From Phocaeicola faecium (GTDB lineage Bacteria > Bacteroidota > Bacteroidia > Bacteroidales > Bacteroidaceae), in NCBI RefSeq assembly GCF_014837055.1, contig NZ_JACSPQ010000001.1, positions 671,035 through 735,034 on the forward strand: 64,000 nucleotides of DNA, read 5' to 3'. Below, piece after piece: positions 42,628-62,188 of this stretch. The position numbers and the translations under genes were made by a program. Under the pieces are notes generated by a model. That model ran no database searches, was not told the origin of the DNA, and was given only the letters and a program-made list of their open reading frames with translations. Numbering within the stretch: the stretch's first letter is position 1; every line of letters begins with the position of its first letter.

Positions 42628-45036
42628 CTATTTTATCAGATTTGCCAACGAAGCAATCATCGTAGCCAGCGAAGCAAACGAAGTGGCACCCGACATTATA
42701 CCTGCAAAATTGACTTTACGGGTTTTGTTCGGCACAACGATTTCACAGCCCGGCTCAATCTGTTTTTTGCCGCTGCCTTTCAACTCTGCCACCTGACCGT
42801 TCATGTAAATAATAAACTTCTTGCTCTTCTTTGCCTGCGAAGAATATCCGCCTGCCTGACTCAGATAATAGCTCACTTTCTTGCCCTGTAAGTAAGAAAC
42901 CGTATTAGGCATCATTACCGCACCACTGATTTTTACCGTATTATTATATTCGGGAACATTGATTACATCGCCTTCACGCAATACGATATCGGCATCTCCG
43001 CCCGGATTTGCCAATGCCGCCTCCAAATCAATGCCCACCGTAAACGTACTGTCGACCGTCAGCCCCATAGAGTTCGCGGCAGACGTACCAATCTCTCTAC
43101 GAATCATCTGGATAGCATCCTGCATCCGTTTCAATTCTTCATCATTGGCTATACGGGTCAGTTTCGCGCCACGCACGTAACCGAATTTGTTCACTCCTCC
43201 CGCACGCTTGATAATGCTGCTCAAACGTTCACTCTTCGTATTCAGGTTATATTGCCCACCGTATAACACCTCACCGGTTACAGTGACGTTAGACTGTGCA
43301 CTGTAGCTCGGACTACGGCGAACCACTACTTGGTCGTAAGGCTGAAGAACAAATCCCGGCGTTCCGTCAACCACAAATCCGTCTTTCAGCGCGAAAGAAT
43401 AGTTCTCGCCTGTGATTTCTGAATCGGTCGTGCTTTTCGGGTTGCGGATACGTCGAGCGATATCCACACGTACCACAGAAGCCGACTCTTTCAAGCCGCC
43501 CGCCGTAATAACCAAGTCTTCCAACGTCATATTATCGGCATAGGTATATTCGCCCGGCTCGTTTACTTCGCCTGAAATCGAAACTTTCCCCCAATTCTTC
43601 AAATCGTGGATACTCGGAATGTAGAGAATATCGTTCTTACGCAAGGCAATATCGGGAACCGTGCCGTTCAATATGCCCGAAATATCAACAGGAAGTACCT
43701 CGCGAGTCAAGTTTTCACGTTCGCGATACAATACGGCACGCGCCGTAAACGCTTCGCCCAACAACCCGTCGGCCTTTTCGACCAACTGGCGTACCGTGTT
43801 CAGATTACCGCTCAACTGGTAAACACCCGGATGATACACCGCTCCTCTCACTTCCAGCTTGTTTGTATAACGGTTAAGGATGGAATCTGCCATCACCACA
43901 TCGCCGTCTTGCATCTGAAACGCCGTATAATTTTTTTCATCAACAATTTCTACGGAATATTCTTTCCCGTTTTGGCGGATAATACGCAGCGTCTTTTTAT
44001 AGGCATCCGATGAGAATCCGCCCGCATAGGCAAGCAGTGTAGCCACCGACTCGTTTTTCTTCATCTCATAACGCATCGGACGTTTTACTTTACCGGTAAT
44101 CTTAACCAACGCATCGTAAGGCGGAACGATAATCACATCGCCTTCCTGCAACGAGATATTGTCTTGGATATCCCCTTTCATGATATATTCATACACATCG
44201 AGCGTTTTTACGATTTTTCCTCCGCGCGCCACCTTCACGTTACGCAAACTACCGATGCTGCTTACGCCGCCCGCACTGTAAAGTGCATGAAAAACGGTTG
44301 AAAATGAAGAGAGTGTATAAGTGCCCGGATATAATACCTCACCCATTACATTAACCTGAATGGTGCGGATATTTCCCAAAGTGACTTTAATGTTATTTGC
44401 AGAGTCAGCATAAATTTTATGAAGTTCCTGTTTCAACAAATCGTCTGCCTCCTTCATACTCTTGTTAGCCAAAGAAATAAGTCCCAGATTCGGGATATTG
44501 ATGTATCCGTCCGGCGAAATTTCCTGCTGAATCGTATTTTCGCTGGCACCCCAAATGTAAATAACCACTTCGTCGCCCGGACCGAGACGGTAATTTTCCG
44601 GTGTGGCAAGATTCAGGTTCGGTTCGAATGTCAGTGCAGAAGAATTAAATATGTTGCGTCCGAACACCTCGTCTTCAGGATTTCCGGTGTTCAGCGAATC
44701 CCGGAACGCATTGGCATAATACAGGTTTGATGAAGAAAGATTGCCATATTGCGTGTTCAACTGGCGTTTGCGGCTTACCGATGTCAAAGAAGCAGTTCCT
44801 GTTTCGGTTGTCGTTCCTCCCATTTGTTGTTGATACATTTCTTTTACACGCAATGCCTGCTCTTGAGTCACCCCGCGGCTTAACAGTTGTACCATGATTT
44901 CGTTTTGGCTTGTACCCTGTTGTAACGCGCTCTGCACATATTCAAGCACTTGTGAATCGCTCATACTCTGTGCATAAGCCGAAGCCGCACCCATCAACAA
45001 TAACAAAGAAAAGGCGAATCTTACGAATCGTTTCAT
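42628..45036 (-). CDS. SLBB-domain polysaccharide export protein (Wza-like)
   Basis: An 802-residue outer-membrane polysaccharide export protein. A signal peptide (residues 1-22, ASAYAQ) precedes a region with VQSALQQGTSQNEIMVQLLSRG. Then comes the poly-export domain with YRLGPGDEVVIYIWGASENTI, and a series of about six SLBB domains (repeated blocks such as VTGEVLYGGQYN and ISGEVNEPGEYTY), more than E. coli Wza. The C-terminus has a hydrophobic segment. No Wzc-type kinase or UpxY/Z regulators are adjacent. The start is set at 45036 (MKRFVRFAF), though 45039 is also possible. A consensus promoter is at 45090-45121. Confidence 0.88.
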   Translation of the reverse strand: MKRFVRFAFSLLLLMGAASAYAQSMSDSQVLEYVQSALQQGTSQNEIMVQLLSRGVTQEQALRVKEMYQQQMGGTTTETGTASLTSVSRKRQLNTQYGNLSSSNLYYANAFRDSLNTGNPEDEVFGRNIFNSSALTFEPNLNLATPENYRLGPGDEVVIYIWGASENTIQQEISPDGYINIPNLGLISLANKSMKEADDLLKQELHKIYADSANNIKVTLGNIRTIQVNVMGEVLYPGTYTLSSFSTVFHALYSAGGVSSIGSLRNVKVARGGKIVKTLDVYEYIMKGDIQDNISLQEGDVIIVPPYDALVKITGKVKRPMRYEMKKNESVATLLAYAGGFSSDAYKKTLRIIRQNGKEYSVEIVDEKNYTAFQMQDGDVVMADSILNRYTNKLEVRGAVYHPGVYQLSGNLNTVRQLVEKADGLLGEAFTARAVLYRERENLTREVLPVDISGILNGTVPDIALRKNDILYIPSIHDLKNWGKVSISGEVNEPGEYTYADNMTLEDLVITAGGLKESASVVRVDIARRIRNPKSTTDSEITGENYSFALKDGFVVDGTPGFVLQPYDQVVVRRSPSYSAQSNVTVTGEVLYGGQYNLNTKSERLSSIIKRAGGVNKFGYVRGAKLTRIANDEELKRMQDAIQMIRREIGTSAANSMGLTVDSTFTVGIDLEAALANPGGDADIVLREGDVINVPEYNNTVKISGAVMMPNTVSYLQGKKVSYYLSQAGGYSSQAKKSKKFIIYMNGQVAELKGSGKKQIEPGCEIVVPNKTRKVNFAGIMSGATSFASLATMIASLANLIK

Positions 45037-45121: not shown

Positions 45122-45289
45122 CGAAAAACCTTTTTTAGTTTTTACCCTCAGCGTAATCAAACAAACGATAATTTTAACCGAAAAAAGTTTACAGTGTATA
45201 TAAAAGTTAGAGAGAGGTGTTATAATATAAAAAGTGTTAACAAAAAGCACTTTTCTATTTCATTGTTATGTTTGATAACATAAAAACAT

Positions 45290-45367
45290 TACTTTTGCAT
45301 CGTGTTTTTCATGGTATTAGATTTAAGGTTAATGAAGATTGGGAGTCTGGGAAGATTCCCTTTTTTT
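45290..45367 (+). ncRNA. Candidate small RNA of about 65 nt
   Basis: A -7 box TACTTTTG at 45290-45297 predicts a start near 45303. A strong intrinsic terminator at 45341-45367 follows (stem GGGAGTC with GATTCCC including one G-U pair, loop TGGGAA, then T7). Nothing between is a convincing gene, although a short frame from 45311 (MVLDLRLMK) runs through the terminator and could be a leader peptide. A TTTG at 45271-45274 lies only 15 bases from the -7 box, while a TTG at 45264-45266 is at 23. Confidence 0.5.
45341..45367 (+). terminator. Intrinsic terminator of the candidate small RNA
   Basis: A seven-base stem (45341-45347 with 45354-45360), six-base loop and T7, oriented on the plus strand although both flanking genes are on the minus strand. 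Confidence 0.7.
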
Positions 45368-45415
45368 ATGCCCGTATCAAACACGGCTTCCATCCGTCAT
45401 CCAATCCTGCCATTA

Positions 45416-45591
45416 AGAGCCTGTTTAAATTTTGCTCTGCCTCAGTTTGAGAATTGTTTTCGAGGATGTTTTTTCGGCTTTTACGAGGAGGATAGCGGGC
45501 TATCTGACGAGTAAAAACGGGGAAACAGACCGGAAACAAACTCAAAAAGGGGCGGATAAAAATACTTAATCGGAAAATTTAAACAGGCTCT
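45416..45591. mobile_element. MITE-like element with 18-base terminal inverted repeats
   Basis: A 176-base non-coding element. Its perfect 18-base ends are 45416-45433 (beginning AGAGCCTGTTTAAA) and 45574-45591 (their reverse complement). TA dinucleotides at 45414-45415 and 45591-45592 could be a target duplication. It encodes no protein and would need a transposase in trans. It is part of the 796-base gap 45076-45871, which also holds the promoter at 45090, the candidate small RNA and repeat copy D. Nothing else is apparent there. Confidence 0.75.
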
Positions 45592-45871: not shown

Positions 45872-47140
45872 TTAACCTCCAAAATTATCATACATAATTG
45901 AAGCGGGATCAACACCCAGACTATCCAGCATGTTAACCACAGCTTTCGACATCGGGCCGGGACCACACATGTAGTATTCAATGTCTTCCGGAGCTTCGTG
46001 ATTCTTCAGATAAGTTTCATACATAACCTGATGAACAAATCCGGCGGTATATTTTACGCCCGCAGCGTCGGCAGCCGGGTCCGGACGGTCTAACGCCAAA
46101 TGGAAGTGGAAGTTTGAGAAGTCTTTTTCCAACTGCAAGAAGTCTTGCAAATAGAACACTTCGTTCAGCGCACGCGCACCGTAGAAGTAGTGCATTTCGC
46201 GGTCGTGAGTGTTCAGTGTACGAGTCATGTGCATAATCTGAGCGCGCAACGGAGCCATACCGGCACCACCACCTACCCAAATCATTTCTTTTTTTGAGTC
46301 GAAGATAGGATGGAAATCTCCGTAAGGTCCGCTCATCAGCACCTTATCGCCGGGTTTCAGCGTAAAGATATAAGAAGAAGCGATACCCGGATTAACATCC
46401 ATGAATCCGCTACGGTCGGGTTTAAACGGCGGAGTGGCAATACGTACCGTCAGCATAAATACATCGCCTTCGGCAGGATAGTTTGCCATTGAGTAAGCAC
46501 GAATCGTCGGTTCGGGATTCACACACTTCAGCGAGAACATGTTAAACTTCTTCCATGCAGGCAGGTATTCATCGCCAATCAGAGCCTTGTCGATATCCTT
46601 GTCATAGTCCATCGTAAATGCAGGAATCTTGATTTGGGCGTAAGAACCCGGAATAAAGTCCATGTGTGCGCCTTTAGGCAACTGCACTTTGAACTCTTTG
46701 ATAAACGTAGCCACGTTCTTGTTTGAGATAACGGTACATTCGTACTCTTTTACTCCCATCACTGATTCGGGCACTTTTATCGACAAATCGCCTTTCACTT
46801 TTACCTGACAGCCCAAACGCCAATGGTCTTTCTGCTGTTTGCGGCTGAAATGGCTCACTTCGGAAGGAAGAATCTCACCGCCCCCTTCAACTACCTGACA
46901 CTTGCATTGTCCGCAAGAACCTTTACCGCCACAAGCCGACGACAAAAAGATATTGTTAACCGCCAACGTATTCAGCAGCGTAGAGCCGGATTCAACCTCC
47001 AGTTGGTTTTCGCCATTGATAGTCAGTTTCACCTTTCCTGAAGTAACCAAGAATTTCTTAGCTACCAACAAGATAACTACCAGCACAAGAATAGTCACGA
47101 GGAATACTCCAATGCTTGCTAAAATAAAATTCATGTCCAT
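45872..47140 (-). CDS. nqrF: Na+-NQR subunit F (NADH dehydrogenase component)
   Basis: NqrF takes electrons from NADH into the Na+-pumping NADH:quinone reductase. The 422-residue protein has one membrane anchor (residues 5-27), a 2Fe-2S ferredoxin domain with cysteines C70, C76, C79 and C111, and a ferredoxin-reductase domain with RAYSMANYP for FAD, GGAGMAPLRAQI for NADH and a C-terminal MYDNFGG. A second ATG two codons in (47134) is equally possible. It is the last gene of nqrABCDEF. Confidence 0.96.
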   Translation of the reverse strand: MDMNFILASIGVFLVTILVLVVILLVAKKFLVTSGKVKLTINGENQLEVESGSTLLNTLAVNNIFLSSACGGKGSCGQCKCQVVEGGGEILPSEVSHFSRKQQKDHWRLGCQVKVKGDLSIKVPESVMGVKEYECTVISNKNVATFIKEFKVQLPKGAHMDFIPGSYAQIKIPAFTMDYDKDIDKALIGDEYLPAWKKFNMFSLKCVNPEPTIRAYSMANYPAEGDVFMLTVRIATPPFKPDRSGFMDVNPGIASSYIFTLKPGDKVLMSGPYGDFHPIFDSKKEMIWVGGGAGMAPLRAQIMHMTRTLNTHDREMHYFYGARALNEVFYLQDFLQLEKDFSNFHFHLALDRPDPAADAAGVKYTAGFVHQVMYETYLKNHEAPEDIEYYMCGPGPMSKAVVNMLDSLGVDPASIMYDNFGG

Positions 47141-52433: not shown

Positions 52434-55400
52434 ATGAAATTTATGCGCAAAAAATACAGCTTAATTGTTATGGTGCCGTTCCTCGGTGCATTATCAGTAG
52501 GAACAGCCAATGCTACGCCTGCCGAAATGAGGGTAGACGAAATAAATATGACGCAACAATCCGGTACTTGTACAGGTGTTGTAAAAGATGCCAACGGCGA
52601 AGTTGCCATCGGTGCCTCCGTAGTAGTCAAGGGCACAACAAACGGTGTTATTACCGATATGGACGGTAATTTCACATTATCTGGCGTAAAACAGGGAGAC
52701 ATTATCGTAGTCAGCTATATCGGTTTTACACCACAAGAAGTTAAATGGACAGGAAAACCTTTGCAAATCACTCTGCAAGAAGACGTTAAAACGCTGGATG
52801 AAGTAGTGGTATTGGCATACGGCGTAAAACAGAAACGCGGAAAACTGACCAACTCTGTATCATCAGTTTCAGAAGAGACATTGACAGTAGGTTCGTATGG
52901 CGACCCTGCACAGGCATTGGTAGGTGCGGTTTCCGGCTTGAAAGTCCAACAATCTTCCGGTTTTGCCGGCTCTACTCCCACCATTACTCTCCGTGGTGGT
53001 ACAAGTTATGACGGTTCAGGCGAGCCATTGGTTGTGGTAGACGGACAAATCCGCACAGACGGTTTAAGTGACTTAAACTCCAATGACATCGAATCGATGG
53101 AGATTATGAAAGATGCCGGCGCTACTGCCATTTACGGTGCACGCGCTGCCAATGGTGTAATCTTAGTCACAACAAAACAAGGTAAAGAAGGTAAAGCTCA
53201 GGTAAACTTCAACATGAAAGTGGGTGCACAATATTATACTCCTGCTTACGATATGATGGATACGGAAGGATATATTTATTGGATGCGCAGGGCACATGCC
53301 GAAACTCCGTGGGCGCCCGCAGCCAATTTAAGTTCTACCTCCCGCCCGATGTCTACAGGAGCAACAGAACTGACTCCCAGCAGCCAATATAATATCTTAG
53401 GTTACACAGGTTCCGACTACCAGTTAGACTTGATAAACAACCACGGATGGCGCGTCATGGACGACCCCGTCAGCGATGGAAAAATCTTATTCAAAGATAC
53501 AAACATTGAAGACTATAACATCAACAGTCCTGCCATATCCCAAGAATATAACCTGAGTTTTTCAGGCGGTAACGAACGGGGAAAATATTATGCAGGCTTA
53601 GGATATTATGATGCCGAAGGTCTTCCCATCAATTCTTTTTACAAGAGATATTCATTCTCATTTACGGGAAACTATAAACTGACAAAATGGTTAGAAGCCA
53701 GCTCCATCTTCAATTACAACCGTGCAAACTGGGAACAAGGTCCCGGACTGTTGGCAGATACATACGGAAGCAGCTTCGACTCATACTACTTCGGCCGTAT
53801 CCTAACGGTGCCTGCCACCATCCGTTTGGAAGATGAAGAGGGGAATCCTTTGATCGGTATTGACCGCACGAATGGAAACTGGTCTTACCAAGCAGACAAA
53901 TTCCAGCGCAACAATCAAACAGACAAGTTCAACATGACCCAAACATTGCAGGCAAACTTGTTCGACGGTTTCACACTGAGAGGTACAATGGCATGGAGTT
54001 TCAGCGAATTTGTAGGCGAATCGTTCAACAAAGATTACTATCAGAATGCCGGTGAGAGCGGTTTGAACACCACACGTGCTTCAAGTGCTACATTCTACCG
54101 TTATTTCAACCAAACTTACAATATCGTTGCCAATTACGATAAGCAGTTCGGTGACCATAATGTAAGTGTAATGGCAGGTACAGAGTTTTGGGACAAGCAA
54201 TACAAATACATTTATGCTGCCGGACAAGAAGCACCTACTGACGACTTTGGAGATTTGGGATATACCTCTACTGAAGCAGGCAAGCGTTCAACAGATACAG
54301 AGCATACCCGCGAACGTATCATGTCATTCTTCGGACGTGCTCAATACGACTATAAAGAACGTTACATTCTTGCATTTACATTCCGTGAAGATGGTTATTC
54401 ACGCCTCATCAACAACCGTTGGGGCTTCTTCCCCGGTGTATCTACAGGTTGGGTATTCTCAAGTGAAGACTTCTATGCACCTTTGCGTGATATCATGAAC
54501 TACGGTAAGTTGCGCGCCAGCTTTGGTATAAACGGTAGTATTGATACTGATTATATCGGCATTTATACCTTGCATGGCCAATACGGTTCTAACCGATACA
54601 ACAATAATGTCGGTTTCCGGTTGAGCACGCTTCCTAATCCTGACCTCCGTTGGGAAAAGACCCGCACGGCCGAAGTCGGATTGGATTTAGGATTCCTGAA
54701 TAACCGGTTTACCTTAGGCTTCACATTCTATGACCGTGTTACGTCTGACAAATATGCATCTCTACCTTTGCCACCTACTACGGGTTGGAGTTCTATTACC
54801 AACAACAATGGTAAATTCCGCAACCGGGGTATCGAAATAGATATCAACGCCAACTTACTTAAAAGAAAAGACATCACTTGGACATTGGGTGCAAACATCG
54901 CATACAATAAAAACACAGTAGTAGAATTGCCATACAACGGTCTGGAAAAGAACCGTCAAGGAGCAACTCAAATCTATACCGGCAACGGGGATAAAACAAT
55001 GTATGTAGGCGGTCTTCAAGAAGGCGAAACTCCGTATGATGTTATCGTTGGCTACGGTGTAGACAAGATGGTACGTTCGGAAAATGATTTAGTAGATGGT
55101 TATTGCGACATGTCGCAAAGCATCGCCGTTTACTCAGGTCAGAAAGGATATCAGAAATTAGTGGATGCCAAGTGGACAGGAACCGCTTATGAATTGGCTC
55201 CCGGCGATTTGATGTATCAAGATATCAACGGCGACGGTGTCATCACTTCGTATGACCAAAAGGTTATCGGTCGGTACACCCCGAAATGGAATGGCGGTTT
55301 CAACACGACGTTCAGTTGGAAAGGCCTCTCACTCTATCTCCGTACAGACTTTGGCTTAGGATTTGAAAGCTACGACGGTATGCGCCAATGGATTAATGGT

Positions 55401-55787
55401 TGTGCACAAGGAGAATATAACATGACAACCGATATTTGGGATTCATGGACACCGGAGAATCCAAATGCAAAATACCCGCGCTATGTATGGGCAGACCAGT
55501 TAGGTACGAACAACTATGTACGTACTTCAGAATTTTGGGTAACAAAAGGTAATTATTTGGCTCTACGCGAACTGCAATTATCTTACACTTTGCCGAAAAA
55601 CATCTGCCAGAAGTTCTATTGTCAGGGGCTGACAGTATCTGTAACCGGTCAGAATCTTGGCTATTGGACAAGCAGCTCTTGTGCCATCCCTGACCGCATC
55701 CAGTATACCAACGGAAATACTGGAGGTTACGGAGGTACATACGCACTGCCTCGTACCGTACTTTTCGGCCTTAACATTACATTCTAA
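52434..55787 (+). CDS. SusC-like TonB-dependent outer membrane transporter
   Basis: A 1117-residue TonB-dependent transporter that imports oligosaccharides (or peptides) with its SusD partner. After a signal peptide (to about residue 27) comes a carboxypeptidase-regulatory-like domain (GVVKDANGEVAIGASVVVKG to VSYIGFTPQEV). A TonB-box-like LDEVVVLAYG follows, then the plug domain with LRGGTSYDGSGEPLVVVDG and MEIMKDAGATAIYGARAANGV. A long 22-strand-type barrel ends in GLNITF. SusD follows 30 bases later. No enzyme or regulator gene is beside it, so the ligand is unknown. Confidence 0.95.
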   Translation: MKFMRKKYSLIVMVPFLGALSVGTANATPAEMRVDEINMTQQSGTCTGVVKDANGEVAIGASVVVKGTTNGVITDMDGNFTLSGVKQGDIIVVSYIGFTPQEVKWTGKPLQITLQEDVKTLDEVVVLAYGVKQKRGKLTNSVSSVSEETLTVGSYGDPAQALVGAVSGLKVQQSSGFAGSTPTITLRGGTSYDGSGEPLVVVDGQIRTDGLSDLNSNDIESMEIMKDAGATAIYGARAANGVILVTTKQGKEGKAQVNFNMKVGAQYYTPAYDMMDTEGYIYWMRRAHAETPWAPAANLSSTSRPMSTGATELTPSSQYNILGYTGSDYQLDLINNHGWRVMDDPVSDGKILFKDTNIEDYNINSPAISQEYNLSFSGGNERGKYYAGLGYYDAEGLPINSFYKRYSFSFTGNYKLTKWLEASSIFNYNRANWEQGPGLLADTYGSSFDSYYFGRILTVPATIRLEDEEGNPLIGIDRTNGNWSYQADKFQRNNQTDKFNMTQTLQANLFDGFTLRGTMAWSFSEFVGESFNKDYYQNAGESGLNTTRASSATFYRYFNQTYNIVANYDKQFGDHNVSVMAGTEFWDKQYKYIYAAGQEAPTDDFGDLGYTSTEAGKRSTDTEHTRERIMSFFGRAQYDYKERYILAFTFREDGYSRLINNRWGFFPGVSTGWVFSSEDFYAPLRDIMNYGKLRASFGINGSIDTDYIGIYTLHGQYGSNRYNNNVGFRLSTLPNPDLRWEKTRTAEVGLDLGFLNNRFTLGFTFYDRVTSDKYASLPLPPTTGWSSITNNNGKFRNRGIEIDINANLLKRKDITWTLGANIAYNKNTVVELPYNGLEKNRQGATQIYTGNGDKTMYVGGLQEGETPYDVIVGYGVDKMVRSENDLVDGYCDMSQSIAVYSGQKGYQKLVDAKWTGTAYELAPGDLMYQDINGDGVITSYDQKVIGRYTPKWNGGFNTTFSWKGLSLYLRTDFGLGFESYDGMRQWINGCAQGEYNMTTDIWDSWTPENPNAKYPRYVWADQLGTNNYVRTSEFWVTKGNYLALRELQLSYTLPKNICQKFYCQGLTVSVTGQNLGYWTSSSCAIPDRIQYTNGNTGGYGGTYALPRTVLFGLNITF

Positions 55788-59449: not shown

Positions 59450-62188
59450 TTAGAAATTCAAACTCAAACTAACAGTATAAGTACGCAATAAAGGATAAGT
59501 ACGCTTGTCGTCAACTCCCAGCGTGGCATCTACCAGACTGGAGTTTACCAGCGGGGTCAGCCCTGAATATCCGCTAATGGTTCCCAAGTTATTGACCGTA
59601 CCCGCCAAGCGTATGCCTTTCAGGAAACGGCGTGGCTTTAGAGGCACAGTCCACCCCACGGTCAGATAATCGAAATTAACGTAGTTTCCGCTCTCTAACC
59701 AGTAATCGGTGGCCGTCTGGTCTTTTATCATCCGTTTGGGAGCCTCTGCCAATACGTTATAATCGGGCAGACTGTTCATGTTCATATACGAAAGCGAAGT
59801 CCCGTTATACACCTTATGTCCGAATGCGCCGTTTATCTGTAACGAGATGTCTATATTCTTATATCGGAAACTGATGTTCGAACCTAACAGAACCTTCGGG
59901 ATGGCTTGCCCTGCCACGTAGCGGTCTTCTCCGTCTTCCAGATTAACCCCTCCCCCGTTCAGGTCGGCAATCTGATACGTATAGCCTCCTTCACCGTCGG
60001 ATACCAAGCCTTCGCAATGAGGAAGGTAAAATACGCCCAACGGCTGTCCCACTATCTGATATACGATATTATTATATCCTCCGTGGGTACCCGCACCGTT
60101 CAGACCGGCTATCGCCGTATATTCCGATGCCGAAATATATTCTCCGTTATACACTCCGCTCAACGAAAGCAACTTATTTTTCTGGAAAGTGATGTTCGCA
60201 TTGATATTCAGTTCCATGTCTTTGGTTTTCAGCGGAGTGACACCTACCGAAACTTCGGTTCCGCTGTTGCGCATCGAGCCTAAATTGGCAAGCAGTGTGC
60301 TGTACGGAAATGGCGGTACACTGACGTTATACTGATACAGCATGTCGGTGGTTTTCGAATTGTAATAGTTGACCGACAGCAAGAGGCGGTTACCATACAT
60401 GCTTAAATCGAATCCGGCGTTGAAGGTGTGTTTTACTTCCCATTTCAGGTCGGGATTGACGTTTTTCATACTTTCGTAAGTTACCAGCGGCGCATTGCCT
60501 ACGGGAGTCACACCGTTCGGGCGTACCAGCGCCATCGTAGTGTACGAATCAATTCCGCCTTGATTACCTGCCAGTCCGTATCCCACACGCAGCTTCAGAT
60601 TATCAACGGAACGGAATTGTTTCATAAAAGCTTCTTCTGTTACATTCCATGCCAACGAAGCCGAAGGGAAAAAGCCCCATTTATGGTTTCTCCCGAATTT
60701 GGATGAAGCATCCGTACGCGCATTCAGCGTGACAACGTAACGGTTATCGTACGTATAATTCACGCGCCCCAAGAAAGAAGCCAAGTGAGGGTCTTCGTAA
60801 TACGAGCCTGTACCGTCCCACGGGCGCAAAGCTCCCGCCTGCAAGTTATGATAACCCAAAGCATTCGATGAAAAGTTTGTCACCGTGGTGTAAAAGCCTT
60901 TATATATATTTTTCTCTAATTCGCCCAGCGCAAGCACATCAAAGAAATGCGCCCCTGCCTGTTTGCGATAAGTCAGCATCAGGTTACCCAACAACGACTC
61001 CGACTTGCGGTCGCCACGGTAAGCCTGCCCGTTTGCCCATACGCTGGTAGGAAGATACTGAGCATCCTCGGCATCGTTATAGGTGTAAGAGCCGAACATC
61101 ACCAATTTCAGGTCTTCCATCAAATTAAAGGTCAGCCGGGCATGTGCACTGAGATAAGAAGCATCGTTGTTATTATCTACTTCCATCCAAGCCAACGGGT
61201 TGGTTATCTGGCTGGCAGTGGTGATTTGGTCCCATCCTCCCGTTTCCGGATTCTTATGGTTAGGGAAAGTAGGATTAAAAGTTGCAGCCGAATAAAAAGT
61301 CTTTTGCGTATCAAACAGCGTGCGGTTTTTCTTTACCGAGCCAAACAGCCCCAATTCGCAGTCGATGAATCCGTCAAGCAGTTTCTGGCTCATGTTCATG
61401 TTTGCGGTAAACAGCTTCATGCTCTCGTTGTCAACCACTCCCTGACGGTCTTGATACCCCAACGACACACGGTAGTTCGATGCTTCACCGCCTCCATAGA
61501 ACGCTATGTTATGATTCTGCTGCAAACCTACCTGCTCAATCTCTTTCTGGAAGTCTGTATCATACCCCTTGTCTAATATTTGCAGATTGTTTTCGGCTGC
61601 CACCCTACGAAATTCTGCTCCCGAAAGCATATCCAAATGACGGTACACATGAGCGATGCCGAAACTGCCGCTGTAATTTACCCGCGTTTTTCCTGCCACA
61701 CCTTTTTTGGTCACAATGTTGATAACGCCCGAAGCTCCCCGCGAACCGTACTGAGCCGTCTCGGAAGCGTCTTTCAGGATTGTAAAGCTCTCGATGTCTG
61801 CCGGATAGATGGAGGTCAGCATCGTCAAGTCGCCCAATACCCCGTCTACTATTATCAGCGGGTCGTTTCCGCTGGTAAGCGAGGTAGTACCACGCATACG
61901 CACCGACTCTAATGCCGCCATGCCGTTGCTGCTCTTCAGAATCGTAAGTCCTGCCACCCTGCCTTGAATAGCCTCCAGCGGATTGGTTATCTGTTCTTTA
62001 TTCATCTGACTTTCAGTTATCCGTTCCACCGAGCCGGAAAGGTTTATCAGGCTTCCGCGCGCGTAACCGATGTTCAATATCGAGTCGGGCGGCAATTCTG
62101 TCTGCGGATTTTCTTGCGCCGATAAAGACTGGAAACAAAAGGGGAAAGCCCAAAGGCAAATAATCGGAATGTAGCTATTTCTTTTCAT
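59450..62188 (-). CDS. SusC-like transporter without the N-terminal regulatory-like domain
   Basis: A 912-residue TonB-dependent transporter with a signal peptide (to about residue 24, SLSAQE). The plug starts at once with NPLEAIQGRVAGLTIL, MRGTTSLTSGNDPLIIVDGVLGD and ILKDASETAQYGSRGASGVI. The barrel ends in LSLNF. The roughly 80-residue carboxypeptidase-regulatory-like domain of most SusC proteins is missing, and no clear TonB box is visible in DSILNIGYARGS. It leads a two-gene operon with susD. Confidence 0.93.
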   Translation of the reverse strand: MKRNSYIPIICLWAFPFCFQSLSAQENPQTELPPDSILNIGYARGSLINLSGSVERITESQMNKEQITNPLEAIQGRVAGLTILKSSNGMAALESVRMRGTTSLTSGNDPLIIVDGVLGDLTMLTSIYPADIESFTILKDASETAQYGSRGASGVINIVTKKGVAGKTRVNYSGSFGIAHVYRHLDMLSGAEFRRVAAENNLQILDKGYDTDFQKEIEQVGLQQNHNIAFYGGGEASNYRVSLGYQDRQGVVDNESMKLFTANMNMSQKLLDGFIDCELGLFGSVKKNRTLFDTQKTFYSAATFNPTFPNHKNPETGGWDQITTASQITNPLAWMEVDNNNDASYLSAHARLTFNLMEDLKLVMFGSYTYNDAEDAQYLPTSVWANGQAYRGDRKSESLLGNLMLTYRKQAGAHFFDVLALGELEKNIYKGFYTTVTNFSSNALGYHNLQAGALRPWDGTGSYYEDPHLASFLGRVNYTYDNRYVVTLNARTDASSKFGRNHKWGFFPSASLAWNVTEEAFMKQFRSVDNLKLRVGYGLAGNQGGIDSYTTMALVRPNGVTPVGNAPLVTYESMKNVNPDLKWEVKHTFNAGFDLSMYGNRLLLSVNYYNSKTTDMLYQYNVSVPPFPYSTLLANLGSMRNSGTEVSVGVTPLKTKDMELNINANITFQKNKLLSLSGVYNGEYISASEYTAIAGLNGAGTHGGYNNIVYQIVGQPLGVFYLPHCEGLVSDGEGGYTYQIADLNGGGVNLEDGEDRYVAGQAIPKVLLGSNISFRYKNIDISLQINGAFGHKVYNGTSLSYMNMNSLPDYNVLAEAPKRMIKDQTATDYWLESGNYVNFDYLTVGWTVPLKPRRFLKGIRLAGTVNNLGTISGYSGLTPLVNSSLVDATLGVDDKRTYPLLRTYTVSLSLNF

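Follow-up and report, generated by a model that had tools for sequence, protein, structure and literature searches.

A class II FopS small-RNA gene of Phocaeicola faecium with a conserved palindrome at its promoter

The stretch of DNA analysed here, which we call the window, comprises 64,000 nucleotides of the Phocaeicola faecium contig NZ_JACSPQ010000001.1 and contains, in a gap between two minus-strand genes, a plus-strand gene for a small RNA of the FopS family. The arrangement of the flanking genes is as an earlier, sequence-only reading had described it. The upstream neighbour, transcribed divergently, is an SLBB/Poly_export polysaccharide-export gene (42628..45036, minus strand; Pfam) with its own promoter box TATCTTTG at 45097-45090 of the minus strand, and the convergent downstream neighbour is an nqrF-like gene (45875..47140, minus strand) whose product has its closest named relatives, at 97%, in uncultured Phocaeicola and in Bacteroides sp. 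An322. The -7 promoter box TACTTTTG, of the type TAnnTTTG, proposed in the same reading is borne out at 45290..45297 of the plus strand. Eight bp upstream of this box lies a 14-bp palindrome, ATGTTTGATAACAT (45268..45281, plus strand; ATGTTNNNNAACAT in relatives), a candidate regulator site in the place of a -33 box. The RNA itself (45302..45370, with the 3′ end probably at 45367) belongs to the type we call class II, defined by a G at nt 12 and with GTGTTTTTC as the predicted 5′ end. Its 5′ seed (45302..45333), equivalent to R1/R1′ of PMC11697453, is complementary to SusC start regions, and it ends in an intrinsic terminator, GGGAGTCT-GGGA-AGATTCCC, with GGGA as the loop (45341..45360), followed by seven T residues (45361-45367). 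The hairpin and its T run had thus been read correctly, but the stem has 8 bp and not the 7 first counted, and the RNA, a real gene as explained below, measures 66 nt with a start at 45302 instead of the 65 predicted.

Generic searches were of little help at this locus. A terminator scan of the window was uninformative, with 4 found against 2.2 ± 1.5 expected by chance, and a sigma-70 consensus scan returned no plus-strand site here. The combination of a TAnnTTTG box with a strong terminator 30-90 nt further on occurs at a single other place when both strands of the window are scanned, at the 3′ end of the nqrF gene. The gap also contains a MITE-like element of 176 bp (45416-45591) with perfect 18-bp terminal inverted repeats (AGAGCCTGTTTAAATTTT), for which the Rfam scan of the window gave no match; it has 49 BLAST matches in the genome, from full-length to fragmentary, and sits in the opposite orientation directly behind another FopS copy (L008).

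The RNA matches Rfam family RF04319 (BTncRNA_FopS) with 76.1 bits against a cut-off of 56 (E 2.2e-9), covering the covariance model in full (positions 1-71), and it is the sole match above a family cut-off when the whole window is scanned. This match and the near-identity of the RNA in relatives, which together form the decisive test, confirm at the level of sequence that the promoter-terminator pair is a real FopS small-RNA gene. Of 30 class II loci read in the genus, the window included, 28 agree in all of the first 31 nt, and both hairpin and promoter are kept in relatives; loss of the hairpin there, one of two signs against an RNA gene named in the sequence-only reading, is not what we found. 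The covariation which that reading had proposed to look for is present at the family level, as compensatory changes in the terminator stem, while the class II stem hardly varies within the genus. We collected 122 distinct FopS-like copies (one from phage BX-TP2), a set enriched for class II because two of the collecting searches targeted that class. A form with a 7-bp stem and a 4-nt loop, in 11 kinds, fits 97 of the 122; stem pairs 1 and 2 are invariant, pairs 3 to 7 each occur as two to four standard pair types, and in class II the hairpin is fully paired in each of the 46 copies. Promoter-like and terminator-like words do arise by chance in AT-rich DNA, and the pair might be such a coincidence or an inert relic, but the Rfam score, the near-identity across the genus and the compensatory stem changes leave this explanation with a negligible share of our confidence. 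When the window RNA is folded alone, a 5′ helix of 7 pairs is also predicted, so that a single-stranded state of the 5′ part is not certain.

FopS stands for "family of paralogous sRNAs"; the description, from B. thetaiotaomicron, is that of Ruttiger et al. 2025 (PMC11697453). According to the parts of that paper available to us, there are 14 copies in this species, the RNAs run at ~65 and 70 nt, their genes have a canonical promoter, and bile salts raise their levels. SusC-type importers are repressed through pairing at the start codon, which blocks translation, and an RRM protein, RbpB, binds and antagonises FopS in bacteria, the Bacteroidota, reported to be without the classical sRNA chaperones of the Pseudomonadota (PMC11697453). 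The genome of P. faecium has nine copies above the Rfam cut-off and in this is multicopy like the described family; the window gene had been called an orphan, wrongly, as it is one of these nine. Its seed agrees with that of a class I copy of the genome (L002) in 30 of the first 32 bases, the exceptions being nt 12 and nt 32, and the terminator behind the seed, as in the FopS architecture, is clear. Nucleotide 12 is a G at 45313 and an A in each of the other eight copies. The window copy differs from the multicopy paralogs in its terminator as well. Of the canonical sigma-ABfr promoter, with TAnnTTTG at -7 and TTTG at -33, it has the -7 box; its -33 region is taken up by the palindrome, and a TTTG word at 45271-45274 lies just 15 nt before the -7 box, compared with a spacing of 19 nt in the class I copy L001.

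Comparison of the 122 copies resolves most of them into three classes. Class I, with A at nt 12 (A12), comprises 61 copies, all of which have a TTTG, CTTG or TTGC word in the -33 region and 60 of which have the TAnnTTTG box. The latter is present in all 46 copies of class II, with G at nt 12 (G12), and a -33 word of this kind in 14 of them. Nine copies with a 5′ end beginning ATTTTTTTC form class III, and the remaining 6 look GibS-like. Class III is a third FopS type, which starts with ATTTTTTTCATAG and has yet another promoter (loci L009, L308, L312, L320, L324, L331, L336, L337, L339 and L472). The palindrome ATGTTNNNNAACAT, at about -34 to -21, separates class II from the others: counted with a start at -33 to -37 and at most one mismatch, it occurs in 43 of the 46 class II copies, in none of the 61 of class I and in none of the 9 of class III. 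The 3 G12 copies lacking it do so at one mismatch, and the nearest approach among the 70 A12 copies of classes I and III has 4 mismatches. When 44 of the 46 copies are aligned on the palindrome, its arms are 98% and its centre 71% conserved; conservation is 62% over the 40 bp upstream and 97% over the next four bases after it.

How regularly this unit is inherited was judged from a census of 13 genomes of the genus, unselected for class, in which all listed FopS matches were read. Class II is present exactly once in 9 of these genomes and absent from 4 (98, 92, 79 and 54% complete), class III exactly once in 10, and class I at least once in all 13, with up to 12 copies, two of them identical, in G007; one G007 copy (class III, without the palindrome) was counted here and is not among the 122. 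A BLAST search with the region matched 61 of 61 genomes of the genus, a total to which other FopS copies contribute; in 55 the best E-value reaches 1e-21 or lower, the range in which a class II unit should fall, and reading of the sequences confirmed this class in 39. A strict pattern of class II core and terminator (at most 3 mismatches) was found in 16 of 301 genomes of the family, all among the 21 of the genus. The exact terminator is therefore genus-specific, while G12 and the palindrome reach further. Parabacteroides distasonis contributes two class II loci and B. finegoldii one, each with 0-1 mismatch in the palindrome, and in G014, of another family, 4 of five FopS matches read as class II-like, 3 of them with the palindrome, the fifth (L315) being too diverged for the class filter. 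These counts should be seen in the light of the fact that most class II copies are orthologs within one genus. Apart from a small number of seed SNPs that set four copies apart, no strong sub-diversification of fopS is reported in the available text of PMC11697453; class II may be represented among the 14 B. thetaiotaomicron copies, by a single one or by several.

The promoters of the other copies point to a different kind of wiring. Seven of the nine FopS copies in the genome have a ATGTTATAAAACA box at -67 (one with a single mismatch) in addition to a TTG-type -33 word, and this box is missing from the window copy and from one class III copy. At up to 3 mismatches, ATGTTATAAAACA also appears between -75 and -55 in 48 of 76 A12 copies, the GibS-like ones included. 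An as yet unknown activator is mentioned in PMC11697453, and this box may be where it binds. A genome-wide search for a palindrome regulon gave 49 matches at 3 mismatches and 38 in a reversed control, which is no clear enrichment, and none of four palindrome-like loci with 1 or 2 mismatches that were examined has a TAnnTTTG box 8 bp behind. We regard the window copy as a separately wired class II ortholog that is ordinary in its RNA, and find it absent from the text of PMC11697453 accessible to us.

The sequence-only reading had offered two roles for the RNA, trans-acting or locus-regulating, and the first of these is supported by the seed, which is complementary to SusC start regions elsewhere in the genome, including two in the window. 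These belong to the SusC-family genes at 52434..55787 (plus strand; -20.7 kcal/mol at the start region, with a C at -1) and 59450..62188 (minus strand; -23.4 kcal/mol), both predicted FopS targets. Genome-wide, the analysis covered loci for 30 of the 39 matches to the SusC family above the cut-off, and 29 were used after exclusion of L249, which has no ATG. With start codons picked by a simple rule and internal structure ignored, the first 32 nt of the window RNA form duplexes with these 29 start regions at a mean of -15.7 kcal/mol, compared with -11.0 for shuffled seeds, of which 0/300 and 0/200 were as good; 12 of the 29 genes individually have a z below -2. The 37 other genes of the window average -11.9 kcal/mol, a value equalled or bettered by 14 of 200 shuffles (SusC versus other window genes, p = 3.4e-5), although three window genes outside SusC regions also score -17.1 to -18.0 kcal/mol. 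The G at nt 12 should matter for a subset of the predicted targets. Relative to the class I seed, it brings a mean gain of 3.4 kcal/mol at the six SusC genes with C at -1 (at least 2.9 in 5 of 6), of 0.2 at the 16 genes with T and of 0.6 at the 6 with A in this position. Two weak matches to the FopS model, L010 and L011, are antisense to SusC start regions, the same genes being found by the SusC family model; FopS resembles the reverse complement of a SusC start region, and this may hint at the origin of FopS.

The G at nt 12 also completes an ATG at nt 10, and one could imagine that the transcript encodes a small peptide (MVLDLRLMKIG...), as class II copies have this start codon and the codons next to it. 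In classes I and III, however, ATA replaces ATG while the rest of the seed is nearly unchanged, some class II copies but not all have an in-frame stop within the RNA, and for the copies of B. thetaiotaomicron the Methods of PMC11697453 state that putative small ORFs had been ruled out. We consider a coding function most improbable.

A local role would find some encouragement in the position of the gene, which diverges from the export gene promoter by ~200 bp. In this scenario the RNA or its promoter would control the adjacent export operon in cis, by pairing, promoter interference or a shared operator. The surroundings of other class II genes are suggestive in the same sense: in 22 of 30 loci, the window included, the gene on the upstream side is capsule-, exopolysaccharide- or fucosylation-like, namely an SLBB export gene in 7, a sugar transferase gene in 5, a fucose pyrophosphorylase gene in 2 and, in 8, a gene for a NusG-like protein, presumably of the UpxY type, behind a bifunctional nuclease gene. 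Neighbour types were judged from ORF starts, with Pfam applied to the SLBB gene of the window and five neighbours. Pairing with the start of the export gene is nevertheless at the level of chance, both for the seed (-10.2 kcal/mol, rank 33 among 41 window genes, equalled or bettered by 185 of 300 shuffles) and for the whole RNA (-19.1 kcal/mol, rank 31, equalled or bettered by 236 of 300), and the palindrome is located at the small-RNA promoter, ~170 bp from that of the export gene. Moreover, the neighbour differs between species and the sRNA with its palindrome stays, which we read as a shared hot spot and not as a target relation. The order nqrF-FopS-export is limited to the window and one other genome (G067, L148) among the 30 class II loci, and 0 of 80 nqrF loci have FopS in the flank at up to 8 mismatches; one match with 9 mismatches beside nqrF (L078) is unrelated. 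The bifunctional nuclease gene is also near one Parabacteroides class II copy, hinting at an old common position of class II by this gene. Since the predicted pairing of the seed exceeds chance with SusC start regions and does not do so with the export gene, the window FopS is probably trans-acting, and control in cis, the locus-regulating half of the earlier proposal, appears improbable to us.

Taken as a whole, a class II FopS gene that is regulated through the palindrome and silences SusC genes in trans is the explanation we hold with high confidence. According to this model, the housekeeping-sigma RNA polymerase of Bacteroides would begin transcription near 45302 under the direction of the TACTTTTG box and stop at the terminator, giving an RNA of ~66 nt, a length suggested by conservation and by the published sizes of FopS RNAs. 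The 5′ end would pair across the start codon of SusC-type mRNAs and block ribosome entry, as complementarity predicts here, and G12 should strengthen the pairing to mRNAs with a C just before the start codon; the adjacent export gene is apparently no pairing target. A DNA-binding regulator presumably acts at the palindrome and would give class II a signal distinct from that of the multicopy class I genes, many of which have another upstream box in common. A search for RRM_1 (RbpB-type) proteins at E 1e-3 gave a hit in the control Bacteroides genome and none in this one, so that the published partner RbpB may be absent or may have been overlooked. The signal that turns FopS on and the reason for its many copies are not settled in the available text of PMC11697453. 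A class II with a conserved operator-like palindrome would split the family into differently wired members, and the palindrome offers a concrete site for finding the putative regulator. The present data extend FopS to a genus that the accessible text of PMC11697453 does not name, in a genome where the search for RbpB-type proteins came up empty.

Phages provide the lead that surprised us most and that is the furthest from proof. One Caudovirales phage is mentioned in PMC11697453, in the part of the text available, together with the suggestion of dissemination, and the isolated phage BX-TP2 of B. xylanisolvens has a class I-type copy. Scanning IMG/VR for the exact 27-base seed gave 31 stretches and a looser pattern 40, those 31 included. 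By their upstream sequence, 12 of the 40 are like host class I genes and 28 are not (L371-L373, L377, L378, L382, L384-L386, L388-L392, L394-L396 and L400-L410). These 28 contigs fall by eye into 12 lineages, or ~11 when a terminase-like protein shared by two is considered. A TAnnTTTG box lies just upstream of the seed in 9 of them, from two lineages. Among the 19 seeds without the box, 18 are located 7 to 139 nt past the stop codon of an ORF on the same strand (ORFs being called mechanically at 60 aa or more), in one case with a tRNA-Arg in between, and the nineteenth is at a contig edge. A strict terminator follows 17 of the 28 seeds (7 of 12 groups), as opposed to 46 of 3000 random positions on the same contigs; further bulged hairpins are visible behind other seeds, and in one group, of five contigs, no T run follows the hairpin. 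The Rfam cut-off for FopS is passed by 5 of 19 phage loci scanned. Both G12 and A12 occur in phage seeds and the palindrome is missing from 8 of 8 viral G12 seeds, so that G12 and palindrome are coupled in bacterial copies only.

Twenty proteins encoded next to phage seeds were scanned; terminase, portal, tape-measure, integrase, primase, ParA and RecE-like families are among the matches, and five of the 20 had no PHROG match. Beside terminase, portal or tape-measure genes the seeds are not likely to be mere attachment sites, an origin that is possible for the lineages near an integrase (L373/L401 and the L408 group). As the phage loci had been found by the seed, relatives were also searched for with neighbouring proteins alone. 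One terminase led to 3 contigs, all known from the seed scan, which keep the seed, in one case upstream instead of downstream of the gene. A second protein gave 16 contigs, of which 4, already known, have the exact seed, 3 new ones an indel variant and 9 no seed in the stretch examined, some of the contigs being truncated. For a third protein the seed was present in 3 of 37 contigs, two of them new and with 3 mismatches, and for a fourth in 5 of 5 near-identical contigs, all known. This patchy presence among relatives resembles that of accessory cargo.

Because the phage seeds have the orientation of FopS, they would be mimics or protein-binding decoys and not FopS targets. Their presence in unrelated phages, at a distance from any host-like FopS gene, suggests that phages exploit the FopS silencing code; we found no prior report of phage FopS mimics in the open-licence PMC literature. 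A joint reading of host and phage data is that the seed is a silencing word common to both, with the host ortholog placed under its own, widely conserved regulator via the palindrome, a proposal we put forward tentatively and hold to be doubtful for the time being. That unrelated phage lineages separately took up the 25-27-nt seed, usually as a transcript 3′ end before a terminator, may be the case, although we would not count on it. If true, a FopS mimic set free on infection would silence importers of the SusC/TonB type, such as those serving as phage receptors, amounting to superinfection exclusion or host reprogramming, and the host class II ortholog would set SusC levels by a signal of its own. 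In the part of PMC10569736 available to us, docking is given as suggesting TonB-dependent receptors as receptors of Bacteroides phages.

The relation of the window RNA to known small RNAs can be summarized as follows. It has in common with GibS the R1 seed GUGUUUUUCAU.GUAUUAGAU, but covers half the length of the 142-position GibS model (RF04182); membership of that family was rejected at 37.7 bits against a cut-off of 115, the best score anywhere in the genome being 50 bits. GibS genes have a non-canonical PM2 promoter according to published papers available in part, unlike the TAnnTTTG box found here, and an R2 seed, which FopS is described as lacking in the accessible text of PMC11697453. 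OmrA/B, Qrr and LhrC, which that paper's Discussion brings up, are likewise multicopy sRNA families with overlapping targets; they belong to other phyla and are likened to FopS by description. Closest are FopS-01 to -14 of B. thetaiotaomicron, which are alike in the 5′ seed followed by a terminator, the length of ~66 nt, the TAnnTTTG box, the many paralogs per genome and the predicted targets in SusC start regions, and from which the window copy is set apart by G12, by another terminator stem and by a palindrome instead of the -33 box.
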